From the IMG/VR virus record IMGVR_UViG_3300009175_000040, positions 1-36,138 of that record: a stretch of 36,138 nucleotides of DNA; one strand, written 5' to 3'. Below the pieces are notes generated by a model. It was not told the origin of the DNA, did not search any database, and worked only from the letters and a program-made list of their open reading frames with translations. Made by a program: the position numbers and the translations under genes. This DNA comes from a virus. Positions 3,208 through 28,200 of this stretch are shown piece after piece. How positions within the stretch are numbered: position 1 is the stretch's first letter; each line of letters opens with the position of its first letter.

Positions 3208-3375
3208 ATGAATATCAAAGACATACAGACAGTTGAGCTTGCGAAGATCTACCGCAAACTCGATTACCCTCTACGGAGAGATTCCCGTCGAGACCACGAG
3301 AGAATCCATCTCCTTGACAAAGTGATGGAGGAACTCACACTTCGCGCTCGTGTCGCAACACGTCAAGTCAAATGA
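3208..3375 (+). CDS. Small hypothetical basic protein (55 aa)
   Basis: This 55-residue ORF starts MNIKDIQTVELAKIYRKLDY and continues as a charged helix rich in Arg (RRDSRRDHERIHLLDKVMEE). It is the first gene after the terminator at 3157-3190 and is coupled to the next ORF by an ATGA overlap at 3372-3375. The coupling, start context (ATCACCATG) and protein-like composition support it. Function unknown; a helical DNA- or protein-binding accessory is possible but not shown. Confidence 0.65.
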   Translation: MNIKDIQTVELAKIYRKLDYPLRRDSRRDHERIHLLDKVMEELTLRARVATRQVK

Positions 3376-4639: not shown

Positions 4640-4887
4640 AAATCACCAAACGATCACCACTCACAGGAAAGCTCAACTCGATGGAGATTCCCTTGAGTTG
4701 TAATGAATATCTCACCGCCCACCACAGATGGGAACACGGCCAGTTGATTCAGGAAGCCTTTCCCACACTCGATGCGGACCAACGCGAGTTCATCCGGATT
4801 GGAGTCTCTCCAGAAGAATGGGATACCATTCACCAAGAGTTCGAGTCACCCACTGATGAATCCTTCCCACATGAGGAACAAACCTAA
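4636..4887 (+). CDS. Conserved-type small phage protein with P-E-E-W motif (83 aa)
   Basis: The product starts MKITKRSPLTGKLNSMEIPL and carries a pattern I recall from small uncharacterised phage proteins: S-P-L-(S/T)-G-K near the N-terminus, then (Q/E)LIQEAFPTLDADQREFI and SPEEWD near residues 50-70. These appear in many tailed phages among early genes, with no experimentally assigned role known to me. The family recognition is from memory and moderate. The gene is coupled to the preceding one (ATGA). It ends shortly before the second hairpin repeat at 4891-4903. Confidence 0.78.
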   Translation: MKITKRSPLTGKLNSMEIPLSCNEYLTAHHRWEHGQLIQEAFPTLDADQREFIRIGVSPEEWDTIHQEFESPTDESFPHEEQT

Positions 4888-7113: not shown

Positions 7114-7476
7114 ATGAAAACTAACAAACATATCGAAGAACTCAACAAAGACATCACCGATCTCCACATCAAGATCGAACAGAAACGCAAACTCATGAAC
7201 TTCCTCTCCGAGTTCGAGAATATCTTCACCGATAACCTCATCCTCGGACTCTACGGTTATGAGATTGAAATCTACACTCCACTCGATTGTCTTGAAGAAA
7301 TCGTCAAAACCTGGGGCCAATCCGACTGGGTTCGAGTTGCCTCCGGTAAAGAATCCATCAACTGGGAACGGAAGATTGGAGACTTCACAATTACACTTCA
7401 TTCGATGGAGAAGTGTGCTCCCGTCCTCGTCCCTCTCAACGCATGGCCGATCATGCTCACACAAGGAGCCGAATGA
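7114..7476 (+). CDS. Hypothetical protein with N-terminal coiled coil (120 aa)
   Basis: I chose the ATG at 7114 (context AACACACCATG). An upstream in-frame ATG at 7045 lies inside the preceding gene and yields an unconvincing extension. The product begins MKTNKHIEELNKDITDLHIK, a coiled coil of about 40 residues, followed by a globular part with SDWVRVASGKESINWERKIG. It is coupled to the next gene by ATGA at 7473. No family was recognised. Confidence 0.68.
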   Translation: MKTNKHIEELNKDITDLHIKIEQKRKLMNFLSEFENIFTDNLILGLYGYEIEIYTPLDCLEEIVKTWGQSDWVRVASGKESINWERKIGDFTITLHSMEKCAPVLVPLNAWPIMLTQGAE

Positions 7477-7793: not shown

Positions 7794-7959
7794 ACACATC
7801 ATTGGTGACAACGTGATGACTCAAGGCTTTGGCCTTGCTGTGATCAGGGAAGTCTATCAATCACCAGAAGGTAACACAGTCTATCGTGTTGATCCGTTGG
7901 ACGGATCGAGTAGTGACTGGCTTATCTTTGAACAGGAGATTTCACCCAATGACTCTTGA
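7783..7959 (+). CDS. Small beta-rich hypothetical protein (58 aa)
   Basis: This ORF starts inside the end of the preceding gene (CCATGACTCC) and encodes MTPKHIIGDNVMTQGFGLAV. The alternation of short hydrophobic strands (IGDNV, GLAVIREV, NTVYRVDPLDG, DWLIFEQEI) resembles a small SH3-like barrel. The stop is 11 bases past the next start. No family assignment. Confidence 0.6.
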   Translation: MTPKHIIGDNVMTQGFGLAVIREVYQSPEGNTVYRVDPLDGSSSDWLIFEQEISPNDS

Positions 7960-8149
7960 GATCTACTACCTCGACGAGAATCAAATCAAACGACGAACCG
8001 CGCCATTCGATGCAAACAAACTGGCCGAAAACCTTCGTCGCTTGAATCACCACAAGCATTTAAGCATCAGGAAAGTGAAGGAGAATCCCTCCGCACTTTC
8101 GCGAACCATAGATACGAGATACATTCTTGAATCTGATCTTGGTGCCTGA
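7949..8149 (+). CDS. Small basic hypothetical protein (66 aa)
   Basis: This is the last gene of the small-gene operon. The product starts MTLEIYYLDENQIKRRTAPF, with a helical basic middle (LAENLRRLNHHKHLSIRKVK). The start lies inside the preceding gene. After it comes a 213-base gap that contains the tRNA-like element. No family was recognised. Confidence 0.6.
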   Translation: MTLEIYYLDENQIKRRTAPFDANKLAENLRRLNHHKHLSIRKVKENPSALSRTIDTRYILESDLGA

Positions 8150-8221
8150 TAGCTTGTCATTCGCGGGAGAGATAGTGCGGAATGGTATGATCCTTTCCAT
8201 ATGGACTTTCCCAAGAAAAAC

Positions 8222-8331
8222 GCAGGTGTGGCGGAAGTATAGACGCGTAGGAAAGAGATGAAATACTCTCTACCTAGTCGAGTCAATTAAAGACTTGACG
8301 TGGGTGATGAGATGTCACTCCACCTGCACCA
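8222..8331 (+). tRNA. tRNA-Leu-like structure with encoded CCA, non-canonical
   Basis: Acceptor strand GCAGGTG (8222-8228) pairs perfectly with CACCTGC (8321-8327) and is followed by ACCA (8328-8331). TG, then a D-stem GCG/CGC (8231-8233/8244-8246) around GAAGTATAGA, matches the tRNA-Leu hallmark TGGCGGAA..AGACGC. A 7-bp variable arm (8278-8284 with 8292-8298, one G-U) fits a type II tRNA. Oddities: the anticodon arm is lengthened (TAGG/CCTA plus AGAGA/TCTCT, loop TGAAATAC) with no T33 or clear anticodon. The D-loop lacks GG. The T-stem is 6 bp (8302-8307/8315-8320) with loop TGAGATG instead of TTCRANY. So it is a derived tRNA-like RNA rather than a working tRNA, lying 31 bases before the ATG at 8363. 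Confidence 0.5.
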
Positions 8332-8336
8332 CGCAG

Positions 8337-8358
8337 TAAACACAAAACACAAACACAA
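8337..8358 (+). promoter_or_regulatory. A/C-rich SD-less leader, copy at 8363 gene
   Basis: These 22 bases (TAAACACAAAACAC then AAACACAA) are identical to 13316-13337 before the gene at 13345, and a looser version (CTAACACAAAACC) precedes the gene at 2685. The stretch is unstructured and purine/C-rich with no Shine-Dalgarno sequence. It probably serves as a ribosome-accessible initiation region for highly expressed genes. Confidence 0.6.
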
Positions 8359-8362
8359 AACC

Positions 8363-8974
8363 ATGACTAAAGTCGAAACAGACATCCTGGGCACAACGGT
8401 TTCCGTTGACGTCCCATCCACCGAAGCCGAATACAACGCTCTCGACACCAGCCGCCCCAGTGCGGTCCTCGCCGACGCCGTGAACAACACCCTCCAACAC
8501 TCCTGGAAAGGTGAAGTTCGTGACAAGGCCGCGGAACTCGTCGAGACCGAACTCGGATTCAAACGGGCGATGAAGCCCGGTGCACTCAAGAAATCTGGCG
8601 AAGCCGGTGCGGATATTCCCGCCGAAACCGTTGGAGTTTTCTTCGAGCGTGCGAAAGCCGCTGGCATCACCGAGGAGCAGCTCGCCGCAGTCCTTATCAA
8701 AGCCGCCACCTCCACCCCGTTCGACCCATCACCGGGTGAGCGTTCCGGTGGCTCTGGCCGCATCGGTAAGGAATACTACGCCGCCGCCGACGGGATCATC
8801 TCCCAAGGCCCGGACGTGATCAAGAAGGCGGTCAAGAAACTGGAGAAGCTCAACGTCGGTGTGGTTGTGAAGTTCAACGAAGACGGCTCCGTCTCCCGCG
8901 ACTCCTTCGCATCCGCCATCCGCACCAACGCAGCCCGCAAGGTTGCCGAAGCATCCGCGGAACTCATCGGGTAA
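8363..8974 (+). CDS. Hypothetical, probably abundant early protein (203 aa)
   Basis: The start at 8363 is chosen because the in-frame ATG at 8300 would read through the tRNA-like element and the shared A-rich leader. The product begins MTKVETDILGTTVSVDVPST and is alanine- and lysine-rich, largely helical in the second half (AAGITEEQLAAVLIKAATST; VIKKAVKKLEKLNVGVVVKF). It has a Gly/Ser loop SPGERSGGSGR near residue 125. Codons are more GC-rich than in the small operon. It shares with the 13345 product an early DTSRP segment followed by Leu-Ala. No domain was recognised. The dedicated leader and trailing hairpin suggest strong, separate expression. Confidence 0.82.
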   Translation: MTKVETDILGTTVSVDVPSTEAEYNALDTSRPSAVLADAVNNTLQHSWKGEVRDKAAELVETELGFKRAMKPGALKKSGEAGADIPAETVGVFFERAKAAGITEEQLAAVLIKAATSTPFDPSPGERSGGSGRIGKEYYAAADGIISQGPDVIKKAVKKLEKLNVGVVVKFNEDGSVSRDSFASAIRTNAARKVAEASAELIG

Positions 8975-8984
8975 TTTCAGCAGG

Positions 8985-9016
8985 TTGAGTGAGGTCTACC
9001 TTTCTTCCTCACTTAA
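8985..9016 (+). promoter_or_regulatory. Hairpin after 8363 gene (no U-tract)
   Basis: TTGAGTGAGG (8985-8994) pairs with CCTCACTTAA (9007-9016), ten pairs with one G-U and a 12-base loop. It begins eleven bases after the stop codon. No T-run follows, so it is more likely an mRNA 3'-end stabiliser, a processing site or the first helix of the downstream structured RNA than an intrinsic terminator. Confidence 0.45.
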
Positions 9017-9194
9017 ACCGCCGCTAATTTGACTGGTAACAAGCGTTAAATTGTTCCAACCGTCCGAGCAGTCACTTGAGGGTTCCTAGTATACTCGTTA
9101 AACTGTTAGTCTATCCTCCGGAGAAAAGAACCGTTAGCTATCTTACAGTCGGGTGAAAGTCCCGACACAATTTCTCAGCAAGGGAGTGATCACA

Positions 9195-9233
9195 ATGGCT
9201 AAGTGCAAAGGTAAAGGTGGTAAGAAGAAGTGA
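9195..9233 (+). CDS. 12-aa Lys/Gly micro-ORF in structured region
   Basis: ATG to TGA spans 13 codons for MAKCKGKGGKKK, six lysines and a single Cys. A purine-rich AAGGGAG stands about nine bases upstream, one of the few Shine-Dalgarno-like sites in the window. It lies between two strong hairpins of the putative structured RNA. It may be a translated basic micropeptide, a leader peptide, or chance. Confidence 0.35.
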   Translation: MAKCKGKGGKKK

Positions 9234-9320
9234 TTACAAGAACTGATGGTGAGGCTAGCCATCCCGGTGGGTTGGACGGAATTCAACCTTGAGACTGAGC
9301 AACCTGCAAAGTGGTGGCTC

Positions 9321-9386
9321 CTCATTTGAACAGGGAGAATGTGTGACATGGTGCGCACCTACATCATACGGCCCTGTTCAAATGAG
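9321..9386 (+). repeat. Perfect 15-bp inverted repeat (long hairpin)
   Basis: CTCATTTGAACAGGG at 9321-9335 is exactly complementary to 9372-9386, enclosing 36 bases that include the self-complementary GGTGCGCACC. Outer bases GTGGT (9311-9315) and ACCAC (9387-9391) add five pairs across a bulge. No T-run follows. It is the longest perfect stem in the window. Confidence 0.7.
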
Positions 9387-9520
9387 ACCACGCAGATACA
9401 TAAACGAAGTCACCTTGGGGACATCCACTACGCGTAGCGAATGCGCCGACGGACACCTCCACAAACCACGACCGATGGGAGTATCTCTCGTGGTCTCAAG
9501 TCTTTCCATCACCATCACCA

Positions 9521-9964
9521 ATGAACGACGCATTAAACTACGCCCGCTTCAAGCCATGTCTTGAACTCATCATCACCCAACACCCTTCTCCCACCAAATT
9601 CACCACCCTAGGTTCCTTCACACCCAACTCCTACTGCACCCTACTCCGTCGTGCTAAACACTACCATGTCCAAGTCCTTGACCTTCCATTCCCTGATGGA
9701 GTTACCTTCCGTTTCGGACACGACCATGTCATCGTTGGTCTTCCCAAGTCGGCCCTCGAACCTTTGCTCCCGACTGGATCAAGTGACCTCGTCAAGATCA
9801 CTCGACCAATATCTGGAGTTGAATTCCACGCACTCTGTGGACTCATTGAACATGGAGTCTTCTCCCACACCTTCCACATTCCCGGACGTCCCCCATGTTT
9901 AGTGCATGAGAACTTTATCAACGTGGAAATGTCCCAGCAATCCGATCACTACCTACTCCTATGA
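9521..9964 (+). CDS. Hypothetical protein (147 aa)
   Basis: The product starts MNDALNYARFKPCLELIITQ after a CACCATCACC spacer and is coupled to the next gene by ATGA at 9961. It has a compact alpha/beta look, with a basic patch (LLRRAKHYHVQV) and a repeated histidine content (HTFHIPGRPPCLVHENF) near the C-terminus. No known domain or catalytic motif was recognised. As the first gene of the replication arm it may be an accessory replication or host-interaction factor; that is position-based inference. Confidence 0.7.
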   Translation: MNDALNYARFKPCLELIITQHPSPTKFTTLGSFTPNSYCTLLRRAKHYHVQVLDLPFPDGVTFRFGHDHVIVGLPKSALEPLLPTGSSDLVKITRPISGVEFHALCGLIEHGVFSHTFHIPGRPPCLVHENFINVEMSQQSDHYLLL

Positions 9965-13130: not shown

Positions 13131-13318
13131 GAGCATTCATAGTTCAACTAGAACAAGAGGACGACATGGATCCCGCCACAGTCGCCCAAGACATCTTACG
13201 ATCTTTAACTGACGACGGCTTCACAGTCGTCCAAGTTAATCCGTGGGGACCAGCACAGAGTGTTGGGATCTCACAAAACCCACCGGAGGTTCAGGGTTTA
13301 ATACCTCCATTAGCATAA
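13127..13318 (+). CDS. Small hypothetical protein (63 aa)
   Basis: This gene is coupled to the MazG-like gene by ATGA. The product begins MRAFIVQLEQEDDMDPATVA, with a helix and a beta stretch (DDGFTVVQVNPWG), then a Pro-rich end. Its last codons overlap the pseudoknot at 13276-13308, and its stop TAA begins the A-rich leader of the next gene, so the 3' end is constrained by RNA signals. No family was recognised. Confidence 0.6.
   Translation: MRAFIVQLEQEDDMDPATVAQDILRSLTDDGFTVVQVNPWGPAQSVGISQNPPEVQGLIPPLA
13276..13308 (+). ncRNA. Candidate H-type pseudoknot before 13345
   Basis: Stem 1 is AAACCC (13276-13281) with GGGTTT (13294-13299). Stem 2 is GGAGGT (13285-13290, in the loop of stem 1) with ACCTCC (13303-13308). 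Loops are 3, 3 and 3 bases. It overlaps the end of the 63-residue gene and precedes the A-rich leader of the 13345 gene by seven bases. It may set the 5' boundary or stability of that mRNA. Complementarity is seen; folding is inferred. Confidence 0.4.
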
Positions 13319-13337
13319 ACACAAAACACAAACACAA
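13316..13337 (+). promoter_or_regulatory. A/C-rich SD-less leader, copy at 13345 gene
   Basis: These 22 bases are identical to 8337-8358 and lie immediately before the start codon region of another solitary, probably abundant protein gene. No Shine-Dalgarno sequence is present. The identity of a non-coding stretch over 22 bases at two distant loci implies function in translation or transcript processing. Confidence 0.6.
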
Positions 13338-13344
13338 TACACAT

Positions 13345-13797
13345 ATGGATCCACTCGATATCGACATCGACATCACTAGCGTTGACACATCACGACCCGT
13401 TCTGGCCGAGTGCCTGGCGGATTGCGAAATCGTTTCCGCTATTCCCGAAGAGAACTCGCGCAAGGATGGCTACAACCTCGTCACGCGATTCCGCACCACC
13501 GCACAGCTCAAGGACATCAAGGACAAAGATGTCGCTCCCGGGTTCCAGCTCACCGCTTGGTACCCACTCCAGTCGAAAGACAAAGAGTCGGGAGAGCCCA
13601 CACAGAAGTGGCTGGAGAACATCATCCAACTCATCGACGCCGCGCTCGGAACTTCGCTCGAAGCGAAAGACCGTCCGTCGTTGAAGGCTGGAATCGCACA
13701 GGTCGTGGGCAAAGTTGTCCGCGCTCGCGTCACCGTTGAGGACATGCCGAATGGCCTCCCGGGTAACTCGGTTCGCTCACTGGCCCACATCAAATAA
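13345..13797 (+). CDS. Candidate OB-fold ssDNA-binding protein (150 aa)
   Basis: The product starts MDPLDIDIDITSVDTSRPVL; an upstream in-frame ATG at 13243 would translate the A-rich leader and is rejected. Beta strands (YNLVTRFRTTAQL, FQLTAWYPLQ) are followed by a helical segment and a terminal strand pair (VVGKVVRARVTVEDM, then PGNSVRSLAHIK). This is the order seen in phage DUF669-like/SSB-like OB proteins, where a G-K-x-V strand precedes an N-x-V end. Its genomic place between Sak4-like recombinase and polymerase and its high-expression leader fit an SSB. The assignment is structural guesswork from sequence. Confidence 0.55.
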   Translation: MDPLDIDIDITSVDTSRPVLAECLADCEIVSAIPEENSRKDGYNLVTRFRTTAQLKDIKDKDVAPGFQLTAWYPLQSKDKESGEPTQKWLENIIQLIDAALGTSLEAKDRPSLKAGIAQVVGKVVRARVTVEDMPNGLPGNSVRSLAHIK

Positions 13798-14184: not shown

Positions 14185-14367
14185 ATGTCAAACAAATCTC
14201 CACTTAATATCCTTCTCGAAAACATCGACTCCGCTATCGCCACCGCACTTCAGATGGGAGTCCATCCAATCTTCATCATGGGAGCACTCGCCAAGCACTC
14301 CAATGAAGTCTCAAAACTCATGGACGAACCCGAAGCAAAACCCGATCTTAACCTCATCCAATCCTAA
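14185..14367 (+). CDS. Small hypothetical helical protein (60 aa)
   Basis: I take ATG 14185 (MSNKSPLNILLENIDSAIAT) and reject a GTG at 14164 that lies inside the pseudoknot. The product is helical and moderately hydrophobic (ATALQMGVHPIFIMGALAKH), not clearly a membrane segment. It is joined to the ParB-methyltransferase gene by a TAATG overlap, so both are probably translated together. Translation from this ATG depends on unfolding of the structure at 14146-14184, which ends six bases before it. Confidence 0.66.
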   Translation: MSNKSPLNILLENIDSAIATALQMGVHPIFIMGALAKHSNEVSKLMDEPEAKPDLNLIQS

Positions 14368-15833
14368 TGACTATTCCACTCGCATCCATCACCTTTGGAG
14401 AACGCATCTCACGTGCATACTCAGGCTACACCGGAATCGAAGACCTTGCTGATAGCATTAAAGATCGAGGACTTATCCAGCCACTTGTCCTTAACCAGGT
14501 TGCAGATGGCACTACTGAAACGGGTAGTCGATTCATCCTCGCGGCAGGTGGTCGTCGATTCAAGGCTCTTGAACTACTTGGCATTGACGAAGTCACAGAG
14601 GGACTTACTTCAGTCCCAGGATGCGCAGGTTATGTTAAGGCAACTGATCTTCCTGATGACCAGCTTCTTGAAGTTGAACTCGAAGAGAATCTCTTTCGTA
14701 TGGATATGGACTGGAGGGACCGAGCCATCATGGTTCACAAAATCCACTCTATCAAGTCGAAGATGGCCTTGGGTTCCACCGGCAAATGGGGGCAACGCCA
14801 AACAGGACAACTCTTAGGTGTCTCTCTCGGTGATGTCAACAACTGTCTCACCGTAGCCAAGGCAATCCTCATGGGTAACGAACCGATCAAAGGTTGCTCC
14901 AGTGTTCGCGATGCCATCCAACTCCTCATCAAACAGCGCACCGACGACGCACAACGTCGCCTCGTGCAATCATCCATCCCTCACGTCTCTCCCATGATGG
15001 GCACCGGTCTCGTCCCTGATCTCTCACAATTTTTCGGCGGTGACGAGGGTGAGCGGCCTCAACTCGAACCACTCGTTCACACTGTGAACACCACAAGTGT
15101 GGGGCCAGTCCAAGTCGTAAAGCTTCGCCAGCAGTTGATGCTTGGAGATTGCTTACAAGTTCTTAAGAAGATCGGAGACAAGAGCTTCGACCACATCGTT
15201 AGTGATCCGCCTTATGGTATCGACATGGAGAACCTCGACCTTGCGAACCAGTCGAGGATCGAAGCCACCCACGATGTGCAGGAAAACCTCACGTTGCTTG
15301 AAGCGATGATGCCAGAACTGTTTCGGGTTCTCAAAGACGATGCGTTTTGCATTCTGTGTTGTGACATCAACCACTTCCAGACCCTCAAGACATGGGCGGA
15401 AGGTGTGGGATTCAAGTCTCAGTCGTGGCCGCTGGTGTGGCACAAGGAACATCCTTGCCGTAACCAAGCACCGACTTTCAACTTCACCAAGAACTATGAG
15501 CTAGCGTTGGTGTTGAGGAAGGGTCTCGCCACGTTGCAGAAACCCCAGACCTCCAGCGTCATCACCTGTGATGGCTCGGTCGAACGTAAGCTCTACGACA
15601 ATCCGTTTGCGAAGCCGTTCGAGATGTGGAGATTCTTCCTCGAAGCAGTGGCAAGCAAAGGTCAAACCATTCTTGATCCTTGCATGGGTGAGGGTAGTTG
15701 TCTCCGCGCATGTGTGAACCTCGGTCTCATCCCCTACGGGATTGAACTCGAAGAGCACCACTTCAATCGTGCGCTAGAGAATGTCAAGAACACTTATTCC
15801 ACACTCCTTCAAGATGGAGTCAAATTCGAATGA
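14367..15833 (+). CDS. ParB-like domain fused to DNA methyltransferase (488 aa)
   Basis: Residues 1-170 form a ParB/Srx-type module: GGRRFKA at 61-67 and ENLFRMDM at 107-114 correspond to the two ParB nucleotide-contacting motifs, with a helix-turn-helix at about 139-166. Residues 250-488 form a beta-class amino-methyltransferase with DPPY (280-283) first and the AdoMet motif DPCMGEGS (437-444) at the C-terminal end, so it makes N6-methyladenine or N4-methylcytosine. The linker contains the palindrome copy at 15075-15089 (His-Thr-Val-Asn). Such ParB-MTase fusions occur in phages and may combine site-specific DNA binding with self-modification against restriction. The recognition site is unknown. 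ATGA links it to the polymerase gene. Confidence 0.87.
   Translation: MTIPLASITFGERISRAYSGYTGIEDLADSIKDRGLIQPLVLNQVADGTTETGSRFILAAGGRRFKALELLGIDEVTEGLTSVPGCAGYVKATDLPDDQLLEVELEENLFRMDMDWRDRAIMVHKIHSIKSKMALGSTGKWGQRQTGQLLGVSLGDVNNCLTVAKAILMGNEPIKGCSSVRDAIQLLIKQRTDDAQRRLVQSSIPHVSPMMGTGLVPDLSQFFGGDEGERPQLEPLVHTVNTTSVGPVQVVKLRQQLMLGDCLQVLKKIGDKSFDHIVSDPPYGIDMENLDLANQSRIEATHDVQENLTLLEAMMPELFRVLKDDAFCILCCDINHFQTLKTWAEGVGFKSQSWPLVWHKEHPCRNQAPTFNFTKNYELALVLRKGLATLQKPQTSSVITCDGSVERKLYDNPFAKPFEMWRFFLEAVASKGQTILDPCMGEGSCLRACVNLGLIPYGIELEEHHFNRALENVKNTYSTLLQDGVKFE
15075..15089 (-). repeat. 15-bp palindrome copy 6 (in ParB-MTase linker)
   Basis: GTTCACA-C-TGTGAAC on the plus strand, between the ParB and methyltransferase parts of the gene. 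Confidence 0.9.
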
Positions 15834-18262
15834 ACGAACAAGGATTCTCTCTCGAAACCACAACAGTAGTCGTCCCCAATGTCACACCAACTTCCATCGC
15901 ACCATACCGAATCGCACTCATCGGGGAGTGTCCGTGTGAAGCAGACATTGAGAACCTCCAACCATTCACTGGGCCAAGTGGTGGGTTCTTGGATGTTATG
16001 TTGTCTAATTGTGGTATCTCCCGTGCTAGTTGCTTTGTTGGTAACATTGCTCAGGTTCGGCCACCTAACAACGAAATCTTCCACTTCAAGTGGGATGGAA
16101 TTGAGATCCAAAGTGGGCTCAACCAACTCCGCAAAGACCTACAAGCATACCAACCGAACCTTTGCGTTCTGATGGGGAAGACCGCGATCACCGCGGCACT
16201 AGGTCGAGCAGTTGAGCCGAGTGATTACAGGGGTAGCCTATTCAAATGTGACCGCATCGACTCCCCTTTCTACGGGTTCAAGTTCCTTTGCACGGTGCAT
16301 CCGGCGTATGTTCTTCGGGACTATTCCGTGATGCCCTTGTTTGCTTTTGACCTCAAGCGTGCACGGGAGGAAGGGGAATACCCTGACTTGAGAGTGCCAC
16401 TTCGGAACCTCCTGATCCATCTCACCGCGGATGAAATCATCAATCGTCTCGACGCAATCACGGAACACCATGAAGTCTCCATCGACATCGAGGGCACGAT
16501 TGAGACTGGCATGTCTTGTCTTGCTATCTCCATCGACCCGCTTGAGTCCTTCTGCATTGTGTTTGGGAGATACTCTATCGACGAAGAAGCCCGCATCTAT
16601 CGTGCCCTGAACCGAGTGTTCCGAGACCCAACCATTGGTAAGTGCTTGCAGTATGGACTCTACGATCGGATGGTTCTCGCCTATCGTTATGGACTCCTCA
16701 TCCGCGGCGTCACGAATGATACCCTCGTTAAGTCTTGGGAGATCCACTCCGAACTACCCAAAGGCCTTGGCACTCTTGGTTCGATCTGGACTAAGGAACC
16801 CTATTACAAAGGTGATCGGAAGTCTGATTCCCGTGAAGTATTCCACCAATACAACTGCAAGGACTCCGCGATGACGTTGGAGATCTCCCGTGCGATGGAT
16901 GGTTCTCTAAGTGGCAAACCACTTGAGCACTACCATTTCAACATGGCTCTCCAAGACCCCTTGCTCTACATGCAGTTGCAAGGCTGGAACTTCGACAAGG
17001 CATTAGCCGATCAAAAGTCTCTTGAGATCAAGCTCGCCAAGTCGGAGTGTCTCGCCCGAATTACCACCCACATCGGGATGCCTCTGAACCCTAACTCACC
17101 TAAACAAGTCGCCCACCTACTATATGACCTCAAAGGACTGCCTAAACAATTCAAGAAGAAAAACGGACGAAACACGACCTCCGTCACCACCGACACCGGA
17201 GCCCTCCTTACCCTCGGTAAAGATCATCGAGATCCTGTCTTATTTGAGATTCTACTTTATCGCAAACTTGGCAAGCTCGAAGACGTTACCCACGCTCAAC
17301 TCGACAAAGACGGTCGTATGCGTTGTTCGTATAACTTGGTTGGAACAGTCACTGGTCGAATCTCATGCTCCACTTCTGCAACTGGTTCAGGATTCAATCT
17401 TCAGACTGTCACTAAAAAATTACGTTGTCTATTTCGAGCCGATCCTGGGTATCATCTTTTCCAGTGTGACCTTAGTGGTGCTGATGGTTGGACTGTGGCA
17501 GCTCATTGCTTGAACCAAGGGGATTCCACAATGTGGGATGATTATCGGTTCGGTCTCAAACCAGCTAAGATCGTCGCTGCGATGAAGGAGTTCGGACGGG
17601 AAGTGAATCAATGCTCTCGTGAAGAACTCGCTAAGATCTGTAAGAACGTCGATCAAGACGGATGGTTATACTTCGGGTGCAAGCGCGTTCAACACGGAAC
17701 AAATTATTCCCTCGGCAAACTCACCATGGCCTCGCAGATCATGAAGGACTCATATAAGTTCCTAGGTAAACCAATCTACATGGATCCCAATATGTGTCTT
17801 CAACTCCAAGGTCTCTACCTCTCCCGCTACCCTGGCGTTCCACTCTGGCAGAACTGGGTGAAGAGACAGGTCTTGGAGAAAGGTCAGATGACTAGTGCAT
17901 CAGGTCACATCCGCAAGCTCTTCGGTCGTCGTCGCAATGGTCGTGACGTTGATCATGAAACATACCGTGAAGCCCTCGCCGAGGAACCCCAAGCGAACAC
18001 CACGGAAGTTACCAACATCGCACTCTACAAACTCTGGAACGACATGGAGAACCGCCGAGGCAATACATTCCGTATCAAACCAGTTCACCAAGTTCATGAT
18101 GCTTTAATCGGTCAATTCTTAATTGAAGAAACTGACTGGGCTATTCCAAAGATCAAGTCTTATTTCAATAATCCAATCACCATTGCAAACACAACTCTTG
18201 TCATTCCATTTGAGATGGGAGTTGGCCCTTCTTGGGGAGATTTAACAGGAGTCAATATATGA
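15830..18262 (+). CDS. Uracil-DNA glycosylase / family A DNA polymerase fusion (810 aa)
   Basis: Residues about 26-184 match a family 4-type uracil-DNA glycosylase (GECPCEADIENLQPFTGPSG at 32-51 and HPAYVLRD at 157-164). Residues 205-360 form a 3'-5' exonuclease (DIE at 219-221, YDRM near 278-281, YNCKD at 341-345). The polymerase follows, with TGRISC at 508-513, motif A DLSGADG at 547-553, motif B KRVQHGTNYSLG at 618-629 and motif C VHDA at 755-758. In most family A enzymes motif C reads HDE; here the Glu is Ala. The residue aligned with E. coli Phe762 appears to be Tyr626, and Lys758 is replaced by His622. It is the phage replicase, perhaps coupled to uracil avoidance. The 3' end is AT-richer, next to the HNH gene. 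Confidence 0.88.
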   Translation: MNEQGFSLETTTVVVPNVTPTSIAPYRIALIGECPCEADIENLQPFTGPSGGFLDVMLSNCGISRASCFVGNIAQVRPPNNEIFHFKWDGIEIQSGLNQLRKDLQAYQPNLCVLMGKTAITAALGRAVEPSDYRGSLFKCDRIDSPFYGFKFLCTVHPAYVLRDYSVMPLFAFDLKRAREEGEYPDLRVPLRNLLIHLTADEIINRLDAITEHHEVSIDIEGTIETGMSCLAISIDPLESFCIVFGRYSIDEEARIYRALNRVFRDPTIGKCLQYGLYDRMVLAYRYGLLIRGVTNDTLVKSWEIHSELPKGLGTLGSIWTKEPYYKGDRKSDSREVFHQYNCKDSAMTLEISRAMDGSLSGKPLEHYHFNMALQDPLLYMQLQGWNFDKALADQKSLEIKLAKSECLARITTHIGMPLNPNSPKQVAHLLYDLKGLPKQFKKKNGRNTTSVTTDTGALLTLGKDHRDPVLFEILLYRKLGKLEDVTHAQLDKDGRMRCSYNLVGTVTGRISCSTSATGSGFNLQTVTKKLRCLFRADPGYHLFQCDLSGADGWTVAAHCLNQGDSTMWDDYRFGLKPAKIVAAMKEFGREVNQCSREELAKICKNVDQDGWLYFGCKRVQHGTNYSLGKLTMASQIMKDSYKFLGKPIYMDPNMCLQLQGLYLSRYPGVPLWQNWVKRQVLEKGQMTSASGHIRKLFGRRRNGRDVDHETYREALAEEPQANTTEVTNIALYKLWNDMENRRGNTFRIKPVHQVHDALIGQFLIEETDWAIPKIKSYFNNPITIANTTLVIPFEMGVGPSWGDLTGVNI

Positions 18263-20921: not shown

Positions 20922-22217
20922 ATGCACTTCTTTGACAACTACATGACTTATGCAAAAGAAAACGAAGCACCTAGGATCTTCCATATGTGGGGCGCACTTA
21001 GTGCGATCTCTGCTGCGATTGGTAGAAAGACTCATCTGGACTTGGGCATCTTTCAGGTTTATCCTAATCTATATTCAGTGTTGGTCGGCAGCCCTGGGTG
21101 TGGAAAGTCCACCGCACTTTCAATTACGAAGGAGATGGTGCGGGCACTTAAGACTGTGCCAATATGCGCGGCTTCGATCACGAGGGAAGCTTTAATACGA
21201 GAGATGTCAAAAGACGGAAGCCCTTGCAAGAAATCGTATAAGATGCCAGATGGGCAGGTGAGAGAGTTTAACCAACTATGTATTATGGCGAGTGAACTTG
21301 TAACGTTCTTAGGGGCCAATGGCACCACGATGATCGAGTTTATGACTGACATCTACGATGAATCTCGGTATGAAGTCAAGACTAAGAACAAAGGAGAGGA
21401 CGACATCGTGAACCCCTACATTTCCCTCCTCGGTTGCATGACTCCTGAGATGACGACTGGCTATCTTAAACAATCAATCATCACTGGGGGATTCACCCGC
21501 CGAGCTATCTTTGTGCTTAGCCACGAGAAAGGGAAACCAGTACCGCGTCCACAAATCACTACGGAGATGGCGCAAGCGAAACTTAAGTGCATCGAATGGC
21601 TTCGTGTGCTTAATGCGCAGCAGGGTGAATTTCAATGGGCCGCTGACGCGATGCAGACTTACGATGAGTGGTATATTGCATTCCGTCTCAACCCCAATAA
21701 ACTTAATGATCCGTCGACTATGGGTTACTACGAGACGAAGCCTATCCAAGCACTTAAAGTCGCAATGCTTGTGTCGATGGCAGAGAGTGCAAAGATGATT
21801 CTTGAGAAGAGACATTTCGAGTTTGCTCTTTCACTCCTGACCGAAGCTGAAAAGAACTTGGAGCAGGTGTTCTTGGGAGTGGGAAAGAATGACACGGCGC
21901 AACTAGCAAGTAAGATCGTGTCGTATCTTGAGATGATTAACCAACCCATTACGACTAAACGCATCTATGCTGTGATGTATAATGATGCGCCTCGTGGGCG
22001 TGAGGATATCGACAAGGTGCTCCACCATCTAGTGGACACTGGCAAGATCGTGCGTATGCAGATCCGCCGTGGAGAACAAGCGACTATGCTGTTCTGTTCG
22101 CACCGAGCCGAACAAGTTACGAGAGATAAGATAGCTGAGGTTAATACATCCCTAACACAGACGTCGGATCTTCCTTCGGGAAGTAACCCATTGCCGCCAA
22201 GTCATCCGCTTGCATAG
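20922..22217 (+). CDS. DUF3987-type P-loop ATPase, probable replicative helicase (431 aa)
   Basis: The N-terminal region (residues 12-52) has a helical stretch typical of DUF3987/primase-helicase proteins (ISAAIGRKTHLDLGIFQVYP). Walker A GSPGCGKS is at 56-63, followed by ATPase-core strands (LCIMASELVTFL, then NPYISLLGCMTP). The GFTRRAIFVL stretch supplies a probable arginine finger. In phages such proteins act as replicative helicases, in some cases fused to a primase; no primase domain is visible here. The gene ends the plus-strand arm and overlaps the 3' end of the opposite-strand virion gene by 77 bases. The palindrome copy at 20884 lies 24 bases upstream of its start. Confidence 0.8.
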   Translation: MHFFDNYMTYAKENEAPRIFHMWGALSAISAAIGRKTHLDLGIFQVYPNLYSVLVGSPGCGKSTALSITKEMVRALKTVPICAASITREALIREMSKDGSPCKKSYKMPDGQVREFNQLCIMASELVTFLGANGTTMIEFMTDIYDESRYEVKTKNKGEDDIVNPYISLLGCMTPEMTTGYLKQSIITGGFTRRAIFVLSHEKGKPVPRPQITTEMAQAKLKCIEWLRVLNAQQGEFQWAADAMQTYDEWYIAFRLNPNKLNDPSTMGYYETKPIQALKVAMLVSMAESAKMILEKRHFEFALSLLTEAEKNLEQVFLGVGKNDTAQLASKIVSYLEMINQPITTKRIYAVMYNDAPRGREDIDKVLHHLVDTGKIVRMQIRRGEQATMLFCSHRAEQVTRDKIAEVNTSLTQTSDLPSGSNPLPPSHPLA

Positions 22218-25200
22218 CACGAAGTCGTGGATTCCCATGTAACTTCGGTAAGGAGCGCCCAGCACCAAGCTGCTGTTTCAACTGAGTCATCGCATCCAGA
22301 CGCTGCACCTGTTGCGGTGCGGTTGGTGTGAGACCCATCAGCCTGGCAGTCTGGGCGCCCGTAGCCGTTCCACCAGAGGGATCAGCAACCATCTGACCCT
22401 TGAGGAATTTCTGTGTGATTGCACGGATTGTAACATTTGGATCGAATGTTGGGTCTTGTGCAGCTTTCTCTGCCACGATCTGCTTGACCTGATCGAACTG
22501 CCCTTCTTTCATCAACTCGACTAAGTCGTCTTGTTCCCGCTTACTTCTTGCGGCTTCAATCTTAGTGCTACGATCTGCCATACGTGCAGCTTTGTAAGCG
22601 TTGTTCAACCGAGTCGGAGCAAAACCAATAGCTCTTCCATACTTCTCCGCTTCAGTTGGGTCAAGCATTAGATTGCCCTTACTATCAAGGATCTTCCAAT
22701 CGTCTCGATACATCTTGATGACGTTCTTGAATCCTAGTGGCACTGCGTTTTCCAACGCTTGTCCCATGTGGCCATTCATCAGTTCCTGGAAGGCTTTGAA
22801 CTCAGAACCCATGAGGGAAATACTGGGGCCGAGTAACTGATCAGCACTCCAGCCCTTCATGGAACTCACACCCATGACGTTGCTCATGCCGTAGCGAGAA
22901 GCGAAATCAAACGGTGTGATTTGGTTCAACAAACCATCGGAAGCCAATCGAGAGTAAAGTCCTCCCATCTCTTGGTCTTGTCCACCCAACTTCGCAATCC
23001 ACTCACGGAGATCCTTCTCGGGTTCAAGTTCAGGGAACATCTGTTCGATGAGAGCAATCGCACTACCCGCGAAGGGTAAACCCAACCCACCAGCCAAGGC
23101 GAATTGTGTGGCAGCGATTTGAACTAAGGCTTTCCTCGCGGCAACTCGTGTGCTTCTCGGAATGTCTGTGCGTCCACTAAATGCCGTCTTGGATTGTCTC
23201 ACGAAGGTGGAAATCATTCCCCACATGTAACCCTGCAAGGACATCATCATTTGTGCAGCAGTTCGACCCACTTGGGTCTTGTTGTCGTATGGTCCAATAG
23301 GCCGTCCTGCTTTACCTTCGTTGAAGTTCGCCAAACGATTGATTCTCCGCGCTTCGTCGATAGCCTCGATGTGACTTAAGCCATTGGCTCTTGCGGTCTT
23401 GTAACCTGCAACCAACGCCACCCTTGTGTTGAACTGAGAGGGAATCTGATAAAGTGCTTTCGCCGCATTACCATACATAGCAACTGGATTTCCCAACAAG
23501 TCGTTCGACGATGCAATCGACATTCCCTGTCCCAACCTCAAACTATTAACCAACGTCAACGAGTCAGGACTAATGGTTTCACTTAGACTTCCCAGGTTAT
23601 GATCAATGTCAATCGCCGCCTGATCCATCAACGCTTTGATATCGGGATCACTCCACTTCTTGGTCATGTGATACTGAGTGACTTCCTTCGCAGCCTTGAG
23701 AGTCTCGCGATAAGAACCAATTACTCCAAGTTCATTTCCAGGTTTGGCGTTGATTTCCGTAAGCACACTGGGCAACGAGACCATCCACTGAGCACCTTCC
23801 ATGATGTGGTTGGAGATGTTGAATGCCAAGTACATGAGGAAATTCCCACTGTTCATCATGGTTCCAAGACGAGTGTCCGGGCGTTGGAAATTCGCGTAAT
23901 TACGCTTCACCAGATCTACTACTGTGGGATCAGCCGTAACAGTTTTATCTAACATCTGCACACCCATGTCGCTGCGTGCTTTCCGTCGAGCCATCTGCTT
24001 GATCGACGATTTGATGAAGTTCATGTGGTTGAAAACCATGTTCAACTCTTCACGACCTGGGTCGAATTCTCGGTGGAGTTTCTTCTCCGTCACGAGAGTG
24101 GTGAGAGATGCTTTGTCCTTGAGGTATTCATCCACCACACTCAGATAAGGCGCAATCTTAGCACGAATTTCTTCATCCGGAACCAGAGACATCACATTGT
24201 CCTGCATCGTCATTTCATATGCACGGAGCTTCTGCACAAACCCTTCATCAAGAGCTTGGAACTCATTGAAGTCTTTCGGGTTAAGTGCTTCGACTTTGGA
24301 AACCGTAGGGTCTTTCTGCAACCTTTCGACTTGACGTTGTTGTTCAGCATACGTCGATGCACTAAGCATACCACCAGTCTCACCCTTGAGGAATTTCACC
24401 TTAAACTTCCCAGGACGACGCTCCGTCACATAATACTTCTTGCTCTCGTAAAACTTTTGAAGATCCTCCAGTGCAAGATTCGCCTTACGATAAAACCCAT
24501 ACAAATCCAACATGGTATCCGCACCAAGTAGTTGCTGCGCGATTTGCAACTCTGCAGGATCCTGAGACTTCACCGCCTCATACAACTTGTTTGCAACTTC
24601 GACAGCTTTAGTCCAAGGCAATTCCCTGTTCTTCATTAGGACGATTTGTGCACCCGCCTTTTGGATTCCATCGACTCGGGTCGCAATATCTTCTTGTCTC
24701 CAGACTGTTTGGGCATAGTCCACGTAGTCCAGATGATGTTGAACAGTAAGGCGATCTATCGGAGACAACTTCGCCAACGCGGCTTCGTCATCAGCGGGAG
24801 TATACTTCTCACCTTTGAAGTTCCTGTCCAACAAGATCTCACTTACGATTTCTTGGAGTCTAGGTGATTTCAACAACTTCTGGAACTCAGTGGCTTTTGG
24901 ATCTTTTACGAATCCGCCTTTGCCATCTGGTTTAGTGCAGAGCAATGACTGAAACTTGACTCGAAGATCCTGCTCGTAGGATTGCTGCATCAATGGGATA
25001 CCAAAAGCATATCTTGCCACCGGATACTTCTCTGCAAGGTGACGCACAGGCATGATCCAGTTCTCCATCGAGTTCAGCCAACCACGTGTAGCCCATCCCA
25101 GATTCACCGCAGTATCCTCAAGAATGTTGCTTTTTTTCCCAAGCATCAGACTCAAACCATCATACATACTCGGCTTGAACCTATCACCATCCATGGTGAA

Positions 25201-28200
25201 AGTCTTGATCGGTGAATCCTCACCCTGCAAGAACGCGACACCCTCAGGAGTAAATTGGTCGAGTGCGAGAAATCTCTGAACTTCTTGTTCGACCTGATTG
25301 TGAGTGCGATACATTCCATCCAACGTACGGTTAAAGTCCGTGAGGAAATCCCTCATCCCTTGTTCCATGCGGAATCCACCGAACTCCTGAACGCCAATCC
25401 CCATCGTAGTGCGCACTGCATTCGTAAGACTCTTAGCCCAATCGACCACATGGAAGATCAAATCTGCCAACGGTTTCGGCATCATCTCCACCATGCTTCT
25501 CCACACCCGTGGTTTCATCGTGGCATTCACCATGGAAACTGAAATCAAGTTAGCAATGATTTCATCAGGCTTGTCGAGATTACTTGCCAACAACGCATTG
25601 ACATTTGGATCGTTACGTTGTTCCTTTGGCAACGACTCGAAGGCCAACTTCATGATGTAGAGAGATTGCTCTTGATTCAGACTACCTAGAAACCCAACCG
25701 CATTATCATAGAACTGAGACATCTCAAGAGATCCCTCTTTGTTTCCCAACATCATGTGGATTTGGTGACCAAGTTCGTGTGCAAAGTTTTGGAGCGTAAC
25801 TGGCACTGAGTGTTGTTCTAGATTCAACGCGATCCAAGGTTTCTCTGTCGCACTTAATCCCTTCAGATTCGATGCACCATCAGTCGTGAATGTGGCCATG
25901 TTGGTGCCTTCAAGTTCCGGGACCAACGCGCACAACTTCATCCAGACTTTCTTCAACGGTGCAATTTCATCAGGGTGACGACCTTCTGCTTCCATTAGTT
26001 TGTCAAACAACTTCGCACCTTGCAGCATCATCCCCGGTGCTTCACTTGCAGGAGTCGCATACAGATTCGAAGCATGAACAGTTTCACCATTTTCCCCAAT
26101 CAGTGTAATCTCCCCTGCTCGACGTTCGTCGGAGATGAGTTTGGACAAGGAGTATTCACGTGCGGTGATATTTGATTTGGGTGTTCCGTCGCGATTTTTG
26201 AATATAGGAGAACCTACTTTCTTTTGTTCTTGTATTTGATTGTATTGATCTTGGTTAATTTCACCATCTCTAAGTGCTTGTTCAGGATCATCAAAAGTGA
26301 GATTATCGTTGTTATCACCAATAACTTCCACTCGTTGATGTTGTCCATAATCCACCAAACTTCCCTTCTCCCCAGTCATCTTCGAGAGAGTATCAGGTAA
26401 CACGTGATCATACGCAAGAGTCATTCCTTTCTCTTGTGGTATAAGAGCACCATCAGAGTTTTGCAAACCTGCCTCAATCACTGCTTTAGCAATAGGCTGA
26501 AACGTTGAAATGTTATTATCGGGTTTATCAACTCGAACCAACCGTGTATCTGATCTATTACTTTCAACTGTAACATATTTACCCTGAACCCAATCTTTTC
26601 CAAAGTTACGTTCTGCAGAAGTTTGTGCGGTATAAGCATCACCATATTCAGAAACAAGTTGTTTCACGATATTATCCACACCTTCGACCTTCTTCACCAT
26701 CCGCGCAACCTTGTCATGCCCCTCAGTCATCATCGCAGTCTTTGCATCACTCACTGCGATCCTATCACAACCATTCTCCAATGCGTGTTGAATCGCAGCT
26801 TTGAGTCCAATGGATTCGTGGACTTCGAGCATGGGGTGATTGGGTGTTCTCGGTGCAGTAAAGTGCTCAGCCTGTGCACGAGTTTCATAAGGCCCACTTA
26901 CATGGCTTCCATCAGCATCAGTCACATTGAAGTGATCGTTGAACTGCACGATCTTGTAACGATTCTCTTCCTTCGCTCTCGTCTGAGCCCAATCACTCTG
27001 AACCTCAATCACGTGGAAAGTCCTACCACCATCAGCACGAGTTTCAACATAACCACGAACCGATGCGATCATGTTGTCGGCTTCGGAGCCCCAGTGAGTT
27101 CCCTGGAACTGTGCCCTCGGAGTCTCACGTGCAAGCTGTGCATTTTGTTCCTTTGATAGCGTAGGATCATACTGCAACTCCTTCTTCGGCAACCTCACCA
27201 ACAACTCCACATACTCGGGCATGTTTACTTTGACTCCGATTTGGGAGTATTGTTCACTTGACCCATCATAAGGAGTTTCACGAGACAACTTAAACAAAGC
27301 ATGATACTTCTGAGTAGCCTTAATAAACTCAGGTGAACTACCTTCAGGCAATGCAATACCACGTTCGTTATTAACCAACACGACACACTGCTGCTCTTCA
27401 GTGAGATTATCAAACCACTCGTGTTGATAGCGCAAAAAAGTCTTCACTGCTTCTGGAAGTGCACCCTCTCCCAACTTCCTTACCTCAACCTTAACCTCGC
27501 CCATCAACTTCTCGACATCGGCGATGTTCACTCGATCCGTATCCTTCAGTGCCCCAACCACCTTCTCCAGCACAGTCATTTCCCAAGGTGGAAGTCCAAA
27601 CTTCTTCCCTTGAGCCAACAGGTTCTCTGCTTTCACAGTTCCGTTGCTATCAATCTGCAAGTGCTGCAACAGCTTCTTATTCTTACCCGAACGATAATCC
27701 GCTAAGTTCTTCATGAACCTCGTGGTAAACATCGTAGGCTTCCCCACAAACGAAATCCCCGTATCACCCACAGTCCAAGTCTTTGCATAAAGTCGCCCAT
27801 TTTCCCCCACATACGTGCCCTCATGCAAACCTTGTGAAAACGTCGCCAACAGTTTACCCGCAACAGGATGATTCAAGTCATTGGAATAGATCAGTCTTTT
27901 CACCTCGTTCCAATCCACTTGTTTCTTACTTGTCATCAATTCCACGAGTTTTCCAAATGCCGTCCGAAAACGTCCCACATTCAAAGGCTCTCCGTTGTTC
28001 AACTGGAGAATCTCATTATTGGACAAATCGTTTAAATGCTTCACCGATTTATCAAGTTCCACTCTCGTGATGTCCCACAAACTCGCCCCATAATGCTCGT
28101 CCGAGTCATGATGCAGTGCCTCAAACACCTGATCCATTCCACTATCTTTCGGATCATCCCAACCCATTGAGGAATACAAGTCTTCAAGATCGACTGAGTG

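Follow-up and report, generated by a model that had tools for sequence, protein, structure and literature searches.

What is the RNA encoded on the plus strand at positions 8222-8331 of IMG/VR virus record IMGVR_UViG_3300009175_000040: a decoding tRNA, the remains of one, or a tRNA body put to a different use? A first-pass annotation of the whole 36,138-nucleotide stretch (hereafter the window), made from the letters alone, had described a tRNA-Leu-like structure here, shortly before a gene, and had offered a 5' processing signal of an mRNA (an RNase P site), a decoy or a relic tRNA as possible readings. The window is a linear virus record of 36 kb, in which the minus-strand genes are structural, including a terminase (140-1687) and a 2883-aa protein (22141-30792). 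The rightward early region encodes a PD-(D/E)XK nuclease, a Sak4-like ATPase, the gene at 13345, a ParB-methyltransferase fusion, polA and a ligase, an order comparable to that in phages such as ctMlz233 and Mel-JY34. Gene 13345 is termed the ssb-position gene by its place and size, as it has no Pfam or PHROG match. The methyltransferase fusion (14367-15833) joins an N6/N4 DNA methyltransferase to a ParB N-terminal domain, and the DNA polymerase A (15830-18262) carries a fused N-terminal domain of the uracil-DNA-glycosylase superfamily. A palindrome, TGTTCACA(G/C)TGTGAACA, recurs in at least nine copies (2159, 3600, 5174, 7559, 10470, 15070, 20877, 30801 and 35436), many of them intergenic, which probably serve a phage regulator as operators.

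The minimum free energy (MFE) structure of 8222-8331 is a cloverleaf of the tRNA-Leu type at -42.3 kcal/mol, against -25.8 +/- 3.5 kcal/mol for dinucleotide shuffles (z -4.76; 0 of 200 equally good). The perfect acceptor and encoded ACCA of the first-pass annotation are borne out: the 5' strand GCAGGUG (8222-8228) forms 7 of 7 Watson-Crick pairs with CACCUGC (8321-8327), and the discriminator A73 and the CCA follow at once (8328-8331), completing the 3' segment 8321-8331. U8 and G9 open the segment 8229-8246, which includes a tRNA-Leu-like D-arm, GCG-GAAGUAUAGA-CGC (8231-8246), that retains A14 and A15 and, as had been observed, lacks G18G19. The anticodon arm is indeed lengthened, its place (8248-8276) being taken by two stacked stems of 4 bp and 5 bp separated by an AA/A internal loop; they end in an 8-nt loop, UGAAAUAC, with no U33 and no 7-nt decoding loop, and these nested helices are significant against shuffles (p 0.02). 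The type II variable arm (8277-8299; GUCGAGUC/GACUUGAC; terminal helix p 0.02) is present, with 8 bp in place of the 7 previously given. U48 (8301), the Levitt-pair partner of A15, precedes the T arm (8302-8320), where a 6-bp stem, GGGUGA/UCACUC, bears the 7-nt loop UGAGAUG in a style similar to that of the relatives L151, L112 and L107. UUC is absent from this loop, as claimed, with U55 and C56 lost, but the description of a degenerate elbow had overlooked that U54, A58 and the A15-U48 pair are retained.

Among the determinants recognized by E. coli LeuRS, the identity elements A73 and A15-U48 are present in the element, and G18G19 and the D-T loop tertiary pairs are missing (PMC9976931); the 12-bp acceptor-T stack and the 3' RCCA of RNase P substrates are both there (PMC10731613). 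ARAGORN reports 0 tRNA or tmRNA genes in the window, and Rfam 15 yields 0 matches at the gathering score, the tRNA family (RF00005) being unmatched even at E<=10; a relaxed Rfam search of the window returned chance matches only. A tRNA-Leu-like element at 8222-8331 is nonetheless confirmed as real and beyond chance.

The distance of 31 bases from the ACCA to the ATG also proved correct. This leader (8332-8362, plus strand) is A/C-rich and unstructured and has no Shine-Dalgarno motif, its last 28 nt being 93% A+C with an MFE of 0.0; many other gene starts in the window are likewise without Shine-Dalgarno motifs and have A/C-rich leaders. It leads to a plus-strand gene (8363-8974) for a 203-aa protein with no Pfam or PHROG match, of which weak homologs occur in the relatives L090, L129, L011, L149 and L088, and its homologs in other phages are accompanied by small hairpins at the place of the tRNA-like element. 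A near-copy of the leader (96% over 13316-13340) forms a second plus-strand leader, 13316-13344, before the ssb-position gene, and upstream of it stands a hairpin, GGAGGU..ACCUCC (about 13285-13308), instead of a tRNA-like element. A second tRNA-like element had been suspected there from the fold (z -2.3); the family model described below gives no match at that place. A sigma-70 promoter scan of 7800-9600 returned no site, and an extended -10-like TGGTATGAT at 8183-8191 was spotted by eye only.

Protein and DNA similarity searches of the element and its neighbouring gene against cultured phages found nothing, and exact peptide patterns found no relatives in IMG/VR; polymerase (polA) profiles were therefore needed, and these reached 13 loci at 34-45% identity and later many more, at up to 59%. 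When 2.6 Mb was scanned for acceptor, D and T stems, with slight extra credit for CCA, UUC and an initial G(C/U)GGAA, the top places were taken by elements with the same D-arm style in L115, L137 (two), L151, L140, the window, L124, L112, L146 and L107, together with the canonical tRNA-Leu of L019. When a D-arm regular expression was scored by pairing, these 10 and L019 reached 23-24 of 24, and all background sites at most 19. An initial D-arm expression was too loose and returned mostly coding sequence; it was the combination of acceptor, D and T stems that separated signal from noise. For the window, L146, L151 and L124, unconstrained folding also yields the cloverleaf as the MFE structure.

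MAFFT applied to the full set of 25 members put the acceptors out of register wherever the T loop was 9 nt long; a covariance model (R1) was therefore trained on 18 sequences with 7-nt T loops, the window being held out. In the window this model recovers 8222-8331 with both ends exactly placed (29.6 bits, E 1.3e-5), the next match scoring 10.1 bits; 1.54 Mb of relatives yield 11 sites, which are L019, the window and nine others (7 of the 11 outside the training set), and 1.05 Mb of more distant phages yield none. Both sides have changed in 9 pairs of the training set (n=18), including all seven acceptor pairs. The covariation score is 0.624, against 0.164 for shuffled sequences (0/500) and at most 0.129 for slid partners, and 98.3% of acceptor pairs are formed over the 25 members, against 57% when shuffled. 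The compensatory changes whose absence from relatives the first-pass annotation had named as refuting its observation are thus present, and the held-out match answers its call for a covariance model. The window element is a divergent member of a family, a point which that annotation had overlooked; it is neither a relic nor a decoding tRNA.

How far does this family extend? A D-arm plus T-arm pattern run over 2.9 million viral contigs gave 36 loci. Read in a fixed frame, half of them (18) form 11-12 of the 12 acceptor and T pairs, each with U48; the remaining 18 form at most 8 and are mostly one coding sequence. The matching pattern, with a slightly different allowed middle (40-68 nt, against 30-60 nt for the viral search), gave 76 loci in 84,980 bacterial and archaeal genomes, none with more than 10 pairs and none with the fold. 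Because 18 viral loci fold against 0 of 76 cellular ones, the family is viral as judged by the D-arm plus T-arm pattern used. An exact search with the 17-nt D-arm in the 2.9 million viral contigs found 47 loci, 41 of which reach an 11-pair threshold for acceptor and T stems, counts that are more generous than those of the fixed frame since the 3' acceptor strand was taken at the best pairing position within 160 nt. U48 is present in 40 of these 41 (26/26 in the first set), A73 in 29 (19/26 in the first set) and an encoded CCA in 3; L298 and L303 are weak among the 41 and were left out of later counts. The family search covers sequences with this D-arm only, and D-arm conservation is partly circular, two of the three collections having been fetched by D-arm sequence; the patterns placed no demand on U48 or acceptor pairing or, for the third search, on the T arm. 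BLAST of two members against cultured phages returned only ordinary tRNA T-arms and coding sequence, 17 matching bases being below its sensitivity. Some members with canonical T arms exceed the Rfam tRNA threshold, and the family therefore grades into ordinary tRNA-Leu. Searches of Rfam 15 and of open-access papers turned up no description of it, and it is apparently a widespread, undescribed phage family.

Common to the family are a perfect 7-bp acceptor, a D-arm of the form UGGCGGAA-short-AGACGC, the A15-U48 contact and a 5-bp T stem, and the window element has the 7-bp acceptor, UG followed by a GCGGAA..AGACGC D-arm, U48 and the 5-bp T stem. U8-A14 is retained as well, and A73 mostly; G18G19 has been lost in nearly all members and the anticodon loop in essentially all, whereas U55 and C56 are lost in the window and its close group. 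A UUC-type T loop is found in most members outside the polA clade and, being missing from the window and deviating in five other members of that clade, is not a defining feature. The decoding anticodon arm is replaced by a free-form middle of 19-123 nt, and a canonical-like arm, with a 5-bp stem and a 7-nt loop with U33, occurs in one of the 41 exact-D-arm members (L167). That the middle varies so freely while the frame is kept argues against decoding. In 15 of the 46 middles tested (p<=0.05 against shuffles; 2.3 expected), the canonical L167 among them, there is a pair of crossing helices, the second of which ends against U48; together they form an H-type pseudoknot joining the anticodon-loop region to the variable region. 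The predicted pseudoknot is clear in L107, L137, L186, L290 and L182, and the middles of the window, L124 and L295 are nested. The contig that holds L281 and L182 has a second copy with an identical middle and a long T-loop insert, its outer T stem being still complementary.

The flanks of the elements bear on what they might do. Of 53 non-redundant members, 34 have U at -1 (p 3e-9) and 30 have A at -2 (p 1e-4). An ATG-initiated ORF of at least 50 codons begins within 70 nt of 54% of members, against 28% of random same-strand noncoding positions, a modest enrichment in compact genomes; several members, L112, L186 and L173, have no near ORF. The genes downstream share no common function. L158 carries a pair of elements whose middles differ and whose 23-nt leaders, each running to a different gene, are near-identical, and the two elements of L157 have a common upstream hairpin. 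Within the polymerase clade, 50 of 65 leaders of ssb-position genes are unstructured at 80% A+C or more, and ahead of these leaders the sequence shows more structure than random 60-mers do (mean z -1.64 against -0.33). The structure before the ssb-position gene may be a family member (L115, L146), a tRNA-Leu, a tRNA-like RNA (L018), a YrlA-like RNA (L016, L009) or a plain hairpin. The tRNA-Leu is the canonical tRNA-Leu(UAA) of L019 (6189-6274), which abuts an A/C-rich leader 66 nt before the ATG; the YrlA (RF02553) match at L016:7530-7665 (+), with a near-identical region in L009, scores 54.4 bits (E 2.6e-11), under the gathering score of 69. L018 contains two further tRNA-like cloverleaves (3284-3367 and 7351-7443) that have no Leu D-arm and were missed by the family model. 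In L007 (4690-5016) two copies of GTGTAAAAATTTTG, possible phage promoters, each with a hairpin behind it, flank a tRNA (4809-4879) ahead of an AAA ATPase gene.

On these grounds we propose, at about even odds, that 8222-8331 is a non-decoding, tRNA-Leu-derived RNA that uses its tRNA shape to punctuate or cap a single phage mRNA. The structure, the covariation, the family and the exact ends are observed; the role in cis is favoured because members often lie less than 70 nt before an ORF and have U at -1. The element would fold as a tRNA within the phage transcript, and host RNase P would cut immediately 5' of 8222 on the plus strand. The tRNA-like body might then persist as a stable 5' end or be removed by 3' tRNA processing. 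Either outcome would part the downstream mRNA from the upstream RNA, leaving the unstructured leader for translation of gene 8363-8974. Bacterial RNase P gauges the 12-bp acceptor-T stack and cleaves some mRNAs at hairpins, stabilizing the downstream message (PMC10731613); the invariable presence of this stack, the enrichment of U at -1 and the filling of comparable places in relatives by hairpins, tRNA-Leu or a Y-RNA-like RNA support this reading, which is the best supported of the three first put forward. Against it, the window has C at -1 (8221), its encoded CCA would impede RNase Z, the downstream genes have no shared function and several members are without a near ORF. As a simple RNase P site needs neither a conserved D-arm nor A15-U48, their retention suggests a tRNA-specific partner beyond RNase P.

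Such a partner brings in the decoy of the first-pass annotation, a rival that we rate as possible but clearly behind the role in cis: a free tRNA-like RNA acting in trans as a decoy or substrate for LeuRS, EF-Tu, a tRNA-attacking defence toxin or PNPase/Ro-type machinery. It may be leucylated, since bacterial LeuRS ignores the anticodon, and E. coli tRNA-Leu can be charged even when both its anticodon arm and its variable arm are missing (PMC9976931). The retained A73, A15-U48, U8-A14 and U54-A58 make up the tertiary core and Leu determinants (PMC9976931); this retention of anticodon-independent determinants keeps a role in trans open. The frequencies of A73 and U48 among the exact-D-arm members, the pseudoknotted middles and the location of some members within tRNA/tmRNA clusters (L186, L168) also speak for it; the same contigs carry tmRNA genes (L168:4355-4779 and, on the minus strand, L186:4297-4755). 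D-T loop contacts are, however, required for leucylation in E. coli (PMC9976931), and the loss of G18G19, and of U55 and C56 in the window, tells against efficient charging. CCA is rarely encoded, though it could be added, and placement at ORF starts is unneeded for action in trans. More doubtful still, in our view, is the wider claim that phages encode a large group of tRNA-Leu mimics, free of an anticodon and often pseudoknotted, which retain what anticodon-blind machinery reads (acceptor, A73, A15-U48, T stem) and, besides punctuating mRNAs, work in trans in a charged or chargeable form. The weighting of cis against trans is a judgement, not a measurement.

The remaining readings fare worse. 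A tRNA-shaped translation enhancer, switch or ribosome recruiter that works without processing would suit an element 31 nt upstream of a start lacking a Shine-Dalgarno motif, and the clade-wide architecture of a hairpin and an A/C leader; yet Shine-Dalgarno-type starts also follow members (L162, L169, L179), which leaves no common initiation mode, and the spacing is not conserved, making this reading improbable. That the element is a degenerating phage tRNA-Leu without present function, as first suggested, would fit its derivation and the canonical tRNA-Leu at a comparable place in L019, but a relic would lose pairing, and perfect stems are kept in wholly different sequences from unrelated phages, with pairs changed on both sides and an invariant U48. 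Covariation thus largely refutes this reading, to which we give very little credence. Least credible is the reading that an intron or other insert interrupts the anticodon arm of a tRNA-Leu gene, from which splicing would yield a working tRNA. The extended arm of the window and L157:4307-4408, where the D-loop is canonical and a long loop caps a 5-bp anticodon stem, are in its favour; we reject it because middles down to 19 nt are too short for a canonical arm plus variable region, L167 alone has the canonical arm, and no group I or BHB signature was seen.

Phage tRNA genes are usually taken as decoding aids. Phages also maintain, in many unrelated genomes and under strong structural selection, tRNA bodies stripped of decoding, and standard annotation overlooks many of them, the window element included. 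The family provides a testable set of RNAs for the uses of an anticodon-less tRNA, be it mRNA punctuation, 5'-end protection, aminoacylation or defence evasion; if they are mimics acting in trans, they might for example be decoys for tRNA-targeting defences or put leucine to use outside coding.

Among known systems, the canonical bacterial and phage tRNA-Leu (RF00005; the tRNA-Leu(UAA) of L019, L167) shares with the element the acceptor, the D-arm sequence, A15-U48, a long variable region, A73 and CCA, whereas the element has no decoding loop, G18G19 or U55C56 and goes uncalled by ARAGORN and Rfam. The bacterial Y RNA YrlA (RF02553; L016, L009) also has a tRNA-like body without an anticodon and lies before the ssb-position gene in related phages, but its body is circularly permuted and rests on a basal Ro-binding stem; no match to the permuted domain was found in the window, and the arms of the element are in ordinary tRNA order. 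tmRNA (RF00023) likewise has a tRNA-like acceptor/T-arm domain without an anticodon, whereas the element is short, has no mRNA-like tag reading frame and has no Rfam match. The rnaC and rnaD of phage T4 (species 1 and 2 RNAs) are small stable RNAs of unknown role encoded beside tRNAs, and rnaC has a T-arm; they have no Leu-type D-arm, and the family model matches only weakly over rnaC (22.8 bits). The comparison extends to RNase P sites of mRNAs and phage RNAs, namely those of the hisCD operon hairpin, the pbuE riboswitch, the phi80-induced M3 RNA and the phage C4 RNA, in which a helix of about 12 bp is cut on its 5' side, altering the fate of the downstream mRNA (PMC10731613). Those sites are hairpins or partial mimics, whereas the phage family described here retains a near-complete tRNA core.
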